From Dysgonamonadaceae bacterium (GTDB lineage Bacteria; Bacteroidota; Bacteroidia; Bacteroidales; Azobacteroidaceae), in the NCBI GenBank assembly GCA_031289145.1, contig JAITQA010000047.1, positions 1-64,000 on the forward strand: DNA of 64,000 bases, written 5' to 3'. The translations under genes were made by a program, and so were the position numbers. Below the pieces are notes generated by a model. It saw nothing but the letters and a program-made list of their open reading frames with translations, searched no databases and had not been told where the DNA came from. Positions 15,839 to 19,486 of the stretch are shown here, piece after piece (position 1 is the first letter of the stretch; each line of letters begins with the position of its first letter).

Positions 15839-16768
15839 TTAGTGTTTATTATAACTAATCGCCAGATTTTTAGCTTTTCCAACCGATTCCTCACTCGCTG
15901 CATCAATGCCGTATTTTTGAGCGGGAGGAATGATTATCTCCAATCCTTCCGGTAGTATGTCCGGATTTTTGATGTGATTTTTGTTTTCCTCGTAAATATA
16001 CACCCAAAAAGCTCTGTTGCCATATTTTTTTAATGCAATCGAAGCCAAGCGGTCGCCACGTGTAATTGTTCTTTTTTCGCCTGCGTCCGGTAAAATAGTT
16101 GCGATCGTATCTTGCGGTAGCGGTTCCTGTTCCGGCAATACCTGCTCCGGCGCTTGCAAAACATATTCTTGTTTACTGCCTTTTTGTACAGGCTCTCCAA
16201 ACGGATTCATATTGATAACAAACTCTATACCTGTCACAACGACAATCACAAAGACCGCTATCAACCAAAATGGAAAATGTTTTTCTTCTTTAAATTTCGC
16301 AGATTCAGGCAAAACCGTCACCGATTGCTTTTCTTCAATTTCTTCAATCTTTTCAACTGTTTCTATTTCTTCAGCCTTTTCAATTTCTTCAACTGATTCA
16401 ATTTCTTCCGTGGTTTCTATTTCTTCAAGCGTTTCAATATTTATATTTTCTTCTATTTCAATTGGTTCAAATAAAGAAAAAGGCTCATTAATCGCTTGTG
16501 CCAGCTGTTTCTCAGGAGAAAAGGCCACCTTGTAATGTGCCGGAATCAAAACCCTTTTGCCGGTGACGACGTCCACACTTTCGCGATTTTCTACAGACGA
16601 CAACTTGAATGTTCCTAAATCTTTTATTTTCAATAATTTATCAGAAAGGATAGCATCACTTGCCACTTCGAAAAATTCTCGAAGGAAAGATTCTGCTTCT
16701 TTTTTGGAAATTGCTTCTTTTTCAGCCAGCCGCGTAGCCAAATCCTGTATGTTGATTTTCTCATTCAT
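15839..16768 (-). CDS. HU/IHF-like DNA-binding domain + Glu-rich linker + TM helix + LysM domain protein
   Basis: N-terminal HU-like domain (KIKDLGTFKLSSVENRESVDVVTGKRVLIPAHYKVAFSP), EIE repeat linker, TM FPFWLIAVFVIVVVTGIEFVI, LysM (RTITRGDRLASIALKKYGNRAFWVYIYEENKNHIKNPDILPEGLEIIIP). Confidence 0.85.
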   Translation of the reverse strand: MNEKINIQDLATRLAEKEAISKKEAESFLREFFEVASDAILSDKLLKIKDLGTFKLSSVENRESVDVVTGKRVLIPAHYKVAFSPEKQLAQAINEPFSLFEPIEIEENINIETLEEIETTEEIESVEEIEKAEEIETVEKIEEIEEKQSVTVLPESAKFKEEKHFPFWLIAVFVIVVVTGIEFVINMNPFGEPVQKGSKQEYVLQAPEQVLPEQEPLPQDTIATILPDAGEKRTITRGDRLASIALKKYGNRAFWVYIYEENKNHIKNPDILPEGLEIIIPPAQKYGIDAASEESVGKAKNLAISYNKH

Positions 16769-17048
16769 GGTTTAGTTCCTTAATTTTTTTATTGAACGAG
16801 GGGGAGGCTTTAAATTTGACAACTAATTTGGGTGGAATGAGCATTCTTTTCCCGGTTTCCGGATGCACATTTATCCTTTCATCTCGCTTTTTTACTTCAA
16901 AATTTCCGAAGTTGGTAATCGAAATTATATTGCTTTCGATTAATTCAGCGGTAAGCGAGGCAACCATATTATCCAATCTCTTTCCGGCTTCCGGTTTGGA
17001 TAATTTCAGTTTTTGAGCCAATACGGCGACTAATTCGGTAGCGTTCAT
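16761..17048 (-). CDS. HU family DNA-binding protein
   Basis: GKRLDNMVASLTAELIESNIISITNFGNFEVKKRDERINVHPETGKRMLIPPKLVVKFKAS; overlaps next gene by 8 bp. Confidence 0.92.
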   Translation of the reverse strand: MNATELVAVLAQKLKLSKPEAGKRLDNMVASLTAELIESNIISITNFGNFEVKKRDERINVHPETGKRMLIPPKLVVKFKASPSFNKKIKELNHE

Positions 17049-17067: not shown

Positions 17068-18369
17068 TTATTCAATCATTCCGAATAAATCAAAAGATTG
17101 TGTTCCTGTAATTTTAACGGGATAAAATGTTCCGGGAACCAATTTTTTGTTTTTGCCAATCAAGATTTCCGTATCGACTTCCGGAGAATCGTATTCGGTT
17201 CGTCCGATATAAAAATCGGATTCTTCACGGTCAATGATGGCCTTGAGTGTCTGCCCGACTTTATTTTCACTGATTTCGGCAGCAATTTGCTCCTGAACAG
17301 ACATCAGTTCCTCCATCCGTCGGTTTTTGATTTCCGGTTCGATATTGTCTTTGTAATGCCGACCGGAATACGTCCCTTCTTCTTCCGAGTAAGGGAAAGC
17401 GCCCAACCGTTCAAAACGCATTTCCCGGACAAACGCCAGTAAGTCGGCAAAATCCGCTTCGGTTTCACCGGGATGTCCTACCATCATGGTGGTACGAAGA
17501 TGAATACCCGGCACTTCCTGCCGAATTTTCTGAAGCAATGCCACGGTTTCCGCTTTTGAAATATTCCGTCGCATAATTTTTAACATAGCGTCGCTGCTGT
17601 GCTGAAGTGCAATATCCAAATATTTGCAAATATTTTCCCTTTCACGCATTAACGGCAGTATAGCTAATGGAAATTGAGCCGGATAAGTATAATGAAGACG
17701 CATCCATTCCACACCGGGAATGTCGGATAGGCGTTTGAGCAGTTCCGCCAGACAGAATTGTTTATACAAGTCTTTCCCATAATAACTTAAGTCTTGCGCA
17801 ATCAGTTGAAACTCTTTGACTCCCTGCCCTGCCAACAAACGGACTTCCTGTTCGATTGCTTCCATGCTTCTCGACTGGTATTTCCCTGTGATAATGGGAA
17901 TAGAACAGTAGGCGCATGTACGATTGCAACCCTCTGCAATTTTCAAATAAGTGTAATGAGAGGGCGTGGTCAGTGACCTTTCGGAAGACAGTTCCGGCAA
18001 ATAAGATTTTCCCAGGTCGGACAACAATTCTTTCCAATTGAATTTGCCATAGAATTTATCGACAGCAGGGATGAGTTTTTCCAAATCTTTCCGGTATCTT
18101 TCCGAAAGACATCCCATCACAAAGAGTTTTTTGATTTGTTTGTTTTTTTTTGCTTCTCCGAATGCAAGAATCATATCAATAGATTCCTGTTTTGCACTTT
18201 CAATAAATCCGCAGGTATTGATTACCACAATATCGCCACTTGTTTTTTCCGGGTCGTGGGATACCAAATAGCCGTTAGCGGTAAACTGGCGCATCAGTAA
18301 TTCCGAATCAACCAAATTTTTGGAACAACCCAATGTAATGATATCGACCTTATTTTTTTTCATTGCCAA
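17068..18369 (-). CDS. rimO: Ribosomal protein S12 methylthiotransferase RimO
   Basis: ITLGCSKNLVDSE, radical SAM CNRTCAYCSIP, TRAM-like C-terminus. Confidence 0.95.
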   Translation of the reverse strand: MAMKKNKVDIITLGCSKNLVDSELLMRQFTANGYLVSHDPEKTSGDIVVINTCGFIESAKQESIDMILAFGEAKKNKQIKKLFVMGCLSERYRKDLEKLIPAVDKFYGKFNWKELLSDLGKSYLPELSSERSLTTPSHYTYLKIAEGCNRTCAYCSIPIITGKYQSRSMEAIEQEVRLLAGQGVKEFQLIAQDLSYYGKDLYKQFCLAELLKRLSDIPGVEWMRLHYTYPAQFPLAILPLMRERENICKYLDIALQHSSDAMLKIMRRNISKAETVALLQKIRQEVPGIHLRTTMMVGHPGETEADFADLLAFVREMRFERLGAFPYSEEEGTYSGRHYKDNIEPEIKNRRMEELMSVQEQIAAEISENKVGQTLKAIIDREESDFYIGRTEYDSPEVDTEILIGKNKKLVPGTFYPVKITGTQSFDLFGMIE

Positions 18370-19312
18370 ACAAGGAATCTACAAATTCCTTTTTTCTGAA
18401 TACCTGTAAGTCTTCCAAACCTTCGCCCAAACCAATATATTTCACCGGAATCCGGAACTGGTCGGAGATTCCGATAACCACGCCGCCTTTGGCTGTACCG
18501 TCCAATTTGGTGACGGCCAAAGCGCTTACATCAGTTGCTGCGGTAAACTGTTTGGCTTGTTCAAAGGCGTTCTGACCGGTAGAACCATCCAAAATCAGCA
18601 AGACTTCGTGAGGCGCATCCGGAACGACTTTTTTCATCACATTTTTTATCTTGGTCAGTTCATTCATCAGGTTGATTTTGTTATGAAGTCGGCCGGCCGT
18701 ATCAATAATTACCACATCTGCCTGGTTGACGACAGCCGAATGTAGGGTATCATAAGCGACGGACGCCGGGTCGGAACCCATTTTTTGTTTGACAATAGGT
18801 ACACCCACACGTTCGCTCCAGATGGTCAATTGTTCCACGGCAGCAGCGCGGAAAGTATCGGCAGCGCCTAAGTATACTTTTTTACCGGCTTTTTTGAAAT
18901 GATAAGCCAATTTGCCGATGGTAGTGGTTTTACCCACGCCGTTTACGCCGACAACCATGATTATATACGGTTTTTTGTCGGTCGGCAAATCAAAATCTTC
19001 CGGATTGTCCGTATCGCTACCCATCAGCATAGACGCAATCTCGTCACGGAGGATATGAGTAAGTTCTTGTGAATCAATGTATTTCTCCCGAGCAATCCGG
19101 GATTCAATCCGACCGATGATTTTCAGGGTTGTTTCCACACCCACATCCGAAGTAATCAGGACTTCTTCCAAATCGTCCAAAATATCTTCGTCAACTTTCG
19201 ATTTTCCGGCAATAATGCGGGTCAATTTCGAAAATACGTTTTCTTTGGTTTTGGACAATCCCTTATCCAAAGTTTCTTTGTTGTCTTTTGAGAAAAAATT
19301 AAACAGGCTCAT
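18350..19312 (-). CDS. ftsY: Signal recognition particle receptor FtsY
   Basis: GVNGVGKTTTIGKLA, DTFRAAAVEQL, DTAGRLHNKINLMNEL, TKLDGTAKGG; start trimmed to MSLFNFFSK. Confidence 0.95.
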   Translation of the reverse strand: MSLFNFFSKDNKETLDKGLSKTKENVFSKLTRIIAGKSKVDEDILDDLEEVLITSDVGVETTLKIIGRIESRIAREKYIDSQELTHILRDEIASMLMGSDTDNPEDFDLPTDKKPYIIMVVGVNGVGKTTTIGKLAYHFKKAGKKVYLGAADTFRAAAVEQLTIWSERVGVPIVKQKMGSDPASVAYDTLHSAVVNQADVVIIDTAGRLHNKINLMNELTKIKNVMKKVVPDAPHEVLLILDGSTGQNAFEQAKQFTAATDVSALAVTKLDGTAKGGVVIGISDQFRIPVKYIGLGEGLEDLQVFRKKEFVDSLFGNEKK

Positions 19313-19349
19313 TCCGCAGTATAAATTAATATGACATGTAAGATTGATG

Positions 19350-19357
19350 CAAAGGTA
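19350..19357 (-). promoter_or_regulatory. -7 element TACCTTTG upstream of ftsY operon
   Basis: Plus strand caaaggta, ~38 nt upstream of ftsY ATG. Confidence 0.5.
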
Positions 19358-19486
19358 CATAAAATTTTTCTAAAAACGAGGTGAGTAATGCACTTTATTT
19401 CGGTCTTTTTCTGTAGCTGAAGAAAATAATTTATTTTTTATGCCATTCAACCATTTTATTCTGAATAAATGGCAAGGATGTTTTTC

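Follow-up and report, generated by a model that had tools for sequence, protein, structure and literature searches.

A membrane-anchored HU protein with a LysM domain and its stand-alone HU partner in Bacteroidales: a candidate two-protein link between DNA and the cell envelope

Introduction

Could a bacterial protein hold the chromosome at one end and the cell wall at the other? The question is raised by an open reading frame at 15839-16768(-) in a 64,000-nucleotide stretch of DNA from a Dysgonamonadaceae bacterium (contig JAITQA010000047.1; hereafter the window). It starts with ATG and encodes 309 aa, in which an HU domain, an acidic linker, a single transmembrane (TM) helix, and a LysM domain follow one another. 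The attachment of bacterial chromosomes to the envelope is a long-standing question, and to our knowledge no direct nucleoid-to-peptidoglycan link has been established. In the openly accessible literature, no paper on an HU-TM-LysM protein was found.

Domain Anatomy of the Membrane HU Protein

Among 84,980 species genomes scanned, at least 547 confirmed relatives of the membrane HU protein were found, and the best 80 of them, which are Bacteroidales loci, were analysed; the features of the window are collected in table 1. The N-terminal domain scored 69.5 bits with PF00216, whose cut-off is 22.4 (E = 3e-19), and all 51 relatives tested also matched this model. In an AF2 model built with 51 aligned sequences, this domain had a pLDDT of about 95-97. 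Foldseek related it to HU and IHF chains (best match 5lvt, 1.3e-7), and IHF gave the best matches for the HU part when the family profile was compared with the PDB. The linker of the window protein (aa 101-166) consists of 38% D+E and 9% K+R and is encoded in a region with tandem repeats at the DNA level (16330-16438); in relatives, its length ranges from 37 to 335 aa and its mean D+E content is 28%. In the C-terminal tail, Y286 and A299 are invariant among 14 close relatives, and the whole tail is absent from Bacteroides/Prevotella-type members.

Table 1. Positions of the HU pair, its domains, and the genes upstream in the window
Feature	Position	Strand	Basis
C-terminal KYGID tail and helix past LysM, aa 284-309	15842..15919	(-)	Conservation; AF2 helix 293-308
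LysM domain of the Kbp-like long type (aa 231-283) with YGNRAFWVYIYEENK core	15920..16078	(-)	PRK11198, profile, AF2, Foldseek
Single TM helix, aa 165-187	16208..16276	(-)	Hydropathy; AF2 helix
Acidic EIE-type linker, aa 101-164	16277..16468	(-)	Composition; tandem repeats
HU/IHF-fold domain of the membrane subunit, aa 6-94	16487..16753	(-)	PF00216 3e-19; AF2; Foldseek
Beta-arm of the membrane HU, aa 60-77, Val67 at the intercalating-Pro site	16538..16591	(-)	V/I/L versus P counts
Conserved basic patch K47-I48-K49 of the membrane HU	16622..16630	(-)	Conservation; alignment to IHF
Stand-alone HU, 95 aa, basic, intercalating Pro63	16761..17048	(-)	PF00216 1.6e-22
rimO, separated from the HU pair by 19 bp	17068..18369	(-)	Named from sequence and synteny
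ftsY, first gene of the cluster, start probably about 19312	18350..19360	(-)	Locus conservation; -7 box upstream

The LysM assignment rests on profiles and predicted fold. The Pfam LysM model did not match the full window protein, and its C-terminal piece scored 14.0 bits against a cut-off of 20.9; among the relatives, 9 of 51 were matched at E<=0.01. The region matched PRK11198/Kbp at 3.2e-6, and the family profile found Kbp (1e-11), Ecp6 (6.5e-10), SafA (2.5e-3), and also LytN in the PDB. The AF2 model gave a beta-alpha-alpha-beta fold at aa 231-280 with a pLDDT of 96-98, which Foldseek superposed on Kbp (8zex) with an rmsd of 1.2 A over 53 columns. By these matches the C-terminal domain is a LysM domain, with putative binding of GlcNAc glycans or peptidoglycan. 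The anatomy proposed in an earlier note, which had been made from the letters of the window, was right, since the HU domain was found by PF00216, the folds by AF2 and Foldseek, the TM helix by hydropathy, and the LysM domain by the family profile together with the LysM sequences of Bacteroides relatives, which are plainer than that of the window protein.

An ordinary HU beside an unrelated LysM gene was rejected as a candidate, both domains lying in one open frame in the window and in most relatives. One membrane HU frame (L018/L136, contig C144 of G006) stops just past the TM helix at 207 aa and is possibly truncated; up to the end of the contig no LysM follows.

Membrane Topology

Hydropathy averaged over 19 residues gave a best value of 2.72, at aa 167, and no second TM segment in the protein. 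Among the best 80 of the relatives, the TM segment was above the hydropathy threshold in 79 and just under it in the remaining one, and neither a further hydrophobic segment nor an N-terminal signal was found in them. The residues flanking the helix carried on average 3.76 K+R on the inner (N-terminal) side versus 1.88 on the outer side, and the inner side had the excess in 64 of the best 80; in the window protein alone the bias was weak, 3 versus 2. Because of the single TM helix, the lack of any other hydrophobic segment, and the K/R excess on the N side, an N-in/C-out topology is supported, with a good signal across the family and a weak one for the window protein alone. This orientation, on which the earlier note had made its reading depend, is supported by the family more than by the protein that raised it.

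Gene Neighbourhood and Distribution

A stand-alone (solo) HU gene lies directly upstream of the membrane HU gene at 79 of the best 80 loci, rimO is found at 75, ftsY at 73, and moxR, downstream, at 55, several of the missing neighbours being contig ends. In the window, the coordinates of the two genes, 15839-16768(-) and 16761-17048(-), give the 8-bp overlap that had been described before; it is the commonest spacing, occurring in 22 of 78 measured pairs, whose range is -11 to +56. Chance adjacency of the pair was rejected on this conserved neighbourhood, on the joint presence and absence of the two genes, and on natural fusions (below).

A Bacteroidetes -7 box, TACCTTTG, precedes ftsY at 19357-19350, a second box of this type precedes moxR at 15768-15761, and none was found within the 19 bp preceding the HU pair; these are pattern matches only, of a motif occurring at 0.7 per kb on this strand. 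Because boxes stand before ftsY and moxR and not before the HU pair, ftsY, rimO, the solo HU, and the HU-TM-LysM gene may form one transcript. The context of ftsY, rimO, and moxR is uninformative on a role in the chromosome, and no conserved nearby target gene was found at the loci. At 19312-19360, the first ATG of the ftsY frame overlaps the -7 box, and translation probably starts inside the frame, with MSLFNFFSK at about 19312.

Represented among the best 80 (of 547 or more relatives) are Parabacteroides, Bacteroides, Phocaeicola, Dysgonomonas, Prevotellaceae, Muribaculaceae, Paludibacteraceae, and termite-gut lineages. The full chain was found in none of about 190 genomes of other orders in the class. 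Within the order, 62 of 295 genomes matched at E<=1e-12, in many families and not in all. In the large Bacteroidales genus of genome G169, all 37 good-quality genomes matched one or both parts of the pair. Two congeners of the host genome, G003 and G023, which are reduced (1.0-1.2 Mb, 99% complete), have neither the membrane HU nor the solo partner. A Bacteroidales-type ftsY-rimO-HU-HU cluster also occurs in L154 (DBWZ01000033.1), named Pseudobutyrivibrio (Firmicutes); the N-terminus of its membrane HU is identical to that of L153, and L154 is probably a misbinned contig.

Division of Labour between the Two HU Domains

We found that the site of the intercalating proline at the arm tip is occupied by Val, Ile, or Leu in 79 of the best 80 membrane HU domains and by Pro in 78 of their 79 solo partners. 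The membrane HU domain carries a net charge of -1 in the window protein and of +0.5 on average among the best 80, versus a mean of +5.2 in the solo HUs. The arm-tip proline and basic face of a DNA-bending HU/IHF protein are therefore present in the solo partner and missing in the membrane HU. The membrane HU has a basic patch of its own, with K/R at aa 47 in 79 and at aa 49 in 78 of the best 80, which is without counterpart in the solo HUs; in a sequence alignment, K47 falls in the column of the DNA clamp Lys45 of IHF-alpha. R62 is nearly invariant in the main set, as K47 and K49 are. At aa 55 (16604-16606 in the window), Lys in 78 of the best 80 membrane HUs stands against Glu in 74 of the 79 solo HUs, a near-complete charge swap that may mark a subunit contact, possibly a salt bridge.

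In the genus of G169, the normal arm sequence was missing from the membrane HU, being shortened or scrambled, at 23 of 29 readable loci, a sample biased by the arm-less query used to draw it; the solo partners there mostly retain their arm. The membrane subunit can thus do without its arm, which is often lost in this genus, and not without its HU body, which is kept. A normal DNA-bending homodimer of the membrane HU is disfavoured because of the absent proline, the neutral charge, and this arm loss, and the picture of the membrane HU as an ordinary DNA-bending HU is not supported. The earlier note had named a lack of DNA-binding arm residues as the result that would speak against its reading. 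Such a lack was found in part: the proline, the charge, and in places the arm itself have gone from the membrane subunit, and the partner keeps them.

Outside the genus of G169, where arm loss is common, the entire beta-arm is deleted in the membrane HU of L130 and L022; in L130, the solo partner is also without its proline.

Evidence for a Heterodimer

In all 5 tested genomes with the HU-TM-LysM protein, an orthologue of the solo HU was found at 114-130 bits, and in all 15 tested genomes without that protein, which include four congeners, one of them 75% complete, only general HUs were found, at 68 bits or less. The distances of the solo and membrane HUs gave a partial rank correlation of 0.45 given RimO and FtsY (permutation p ~0.002), which a shared fold and composition may inflate; the corresponding values were 0.12 for the membrane HU with the LysM of the same chain and 0.08 for the solo HU with LysM. 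Moreover, in four genomes of one genus (L226, L228, L230, and L244), the solo HU, the membrane HU, the acidic linker, the TM helix, and the LysM domain are encoded in a single open reading frame. Because the junctions differ among the four, these natural fusions are not one assembly error; a gene tree of the fused and separate forms had too little support to count one fusion event or several. Given the split of arm features, the joint presence and absence, the co-divergence, and the four fusions, an asymmetric heterodimer is likely, and heterodimerisation of the solo and membrane HUs, raised as a possibility in the earlier note and favoured also by the conserved adjacency, is strongly supported as a prediction from sequence.

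A Candidate Tether and Its Rivals

We regard it as an even call that the frame at 15839-16768(-) encodes the membrane subunit of an asymmetric two-protein HU heterodimer that ties DNA to the envelope. The solo HU would dimerise with the membrane HU domain beneath the inner membrane and insert its proline-tipped arm into DNA, and the membrane subunit would supply the HU body for dimerisation and the K47/K49 clamp patch. The acidic linker would act as a flexible, DNA-repelling spacer, the TM helix would span the inner membrane, and the periplasmic LysM domain would grip peptidoglycan. The outcome would be a diffuse, sequence-nonspecific nucleoid-to-wall tether, which could help chromosome positioning or segregation. 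Such a tether is the best explanation of the pair but is unproven. The near-neutral charge of the membrane HU (-1 in the window protein) counts against it, and in the genus with arm loss DNA binding could perhaps be dispensable.

The same features feed the main rival, in which the membrane HU is a protein-protein module only. It would hold no DNA but draw the solo HU, or some other protein of HU type, to the envelope or sequester it there, and would thereby regulate the pool of free HU or the growth of the wall. In its favour are the lost proline and near-zero charge, the shortened or scrambled arm with a retained HU body in many members of one genus, and the missing arm in L130 and L022; HU domains recruited for protein contacts were reportedly proposed by Burroughs et al. 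in 2017 for CCDC81. It accounts poorly for the near invariance of the K47/K49 patch and R62 in the main set and for the full DNA-bending arm retained by the solo partner, and the hydrophobic Val or Ile at the arm tip may still wedge DNA, as does the Phe at the HU arm tip of phage TF1. We consider pure recruitment unlikely, yet a serious contender.

Improbable, in our view, is a membrane-bound regulator similar to a one-component transmembrane transcription regulator, whose LysM domain would sense the wall state or muropeptides and alter how the HU pair binds DNA at certain promoters. The layout is that of membrane transcription factors (cytoplasmic DNA-binding part, TM helix, periplasmic sensor), and the genes cluster with ftsY and rimO. 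However, the sequence specificity of HU/IHF domains is weak, the loci share no conserved target gene, and a linker that varies so widely in length is unlike a rigid signal relay. We give still less credence to a LysM domain that serves something other than the wall, as a potassium-binding type like Kbp/YgaU or in protein contacts, leaving a membrane-anchored HU with no wall link: Kbp is the best structural and sequence match and the Pfam score of the window protein is below threshold, but the family profile also matches the glycan-binding LysM domains of Ecp6, LytN, and SafA, the domain is predicted on the periplasmic side, and an HU-TM-SPOR protein of the same genome has a wall-binding domain at the same place. 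Very improbable, finally, is that both ends lie on one side of the membrane, for which the weak charge bias of the window protein could be cited, or that the two genes of the pair adjoin by chance with no joint function, given the family-wide charge bias, the conserved adjacency among the best 80 relatives, the joint loss, and the fusions.

Relation to Known Systems

The closest relative of the HU-TM-LysM system is this HU-TM-SPOR protein, encoded in the host genome at C38:11145-12146(-) (L174:3146-4147) and composed of HU-CCDC81_bac_1, HU-CCDC81_bac_2, a probable membrane segment, and SPOR. For Bacteroidetes proteins of this architecture (PF18174/PF18175/PF05036), a role in chromosome partition was reportedly predicted by Burroughs et al. 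in 2017. It shares with the HU pair the presence of two HUs, a membrane segment, and a domain at the C-terminus that binds peptidoglycan; unlike the pair, it has both HUs in one chain, HUs of other clades, SPOR in place of LysM, and no separate partner gene. The membrane HU scored 17-20 bits with PF18175 against a cut-off of 35, which leaves it outside HU-CCDC81_bac, and the own-genome search for SPOR gave no match on C11, the C-terminus of the membrane HU protein being LysM. Tentatively, and at somewhat less than even chances, we suggest for much of the Bacteroidales a two-component trans-envelope tether, in which a one-armed HU heterodimer links the bulk chromosome to peptidoglycan in parallel with HU-TM-SPOR in the same cells.

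IHF alpha/beta shares with the pair the HU fold, the use of two unlike subunits, and the Lys at the K45 column of IHF, where K47 lies; however, IHF is soluble, has Pro on both arms, and is usually encoded by genes that lie apart, whereas one subunit of the HU pair is membrane-bound and without Pro. The polar landmark HubP/FimV resembles the membrane HU protein in its periplasmic LysM, one TM helix, and long acidic region of variable length, and differs in its reversed domain order and its cytoplasmic TPR/FimV end; it has been studied in Gammaproteobacteria (PMC12918733). The LysM of FimV binds peptidoglycan and sacculi, and its cytoplasmic region is acidic (PMC12918733). No FimV/TPR domain was matched by Pfam in the window protein, which has HU at its N-terminus instead. 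RocS of Streptococcus pneumoniae links DNA to the membrane in a single chain and, unlike the HU pair, does so with a wHTH and an amphipathic helix, with no wall-binding domain and no partner subunit (PMC11500499). Parts comparable to those of the HU pair are thus known to function in FimV and RocS.

Because the host genome encodes both the HU-CCDC81-SPOR protein on C38 and a second HU-like/TM/LysM protein on C150, membrane HU proteins with wall-binding ends are a kind already known, if perhaps only from prediction. The novelty lies in the LysM branch, which comes with an obligate solo partner, and in the predicted split of arm and anchor over two subunits. If an HU dimer does divide into a DNA-wedging and a membrane subunit, a very common chromosome protein would here be put to a new use. 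The conserved pair, which occurs in gut bacteria amenable to genetics (Bacteroides, Phocaeicola, and Parabacteroides relatives), offers a concrete, testable tether candidate.

The protein on C150 (G000:C150:60586-61587(-), L002/L178) has 333 aa. Its N-terminus resembles two degenerate HU domains, with a weak Pfam match (7e-4) limited to the first of them, and outside the genus its matches are to the LysM part only.
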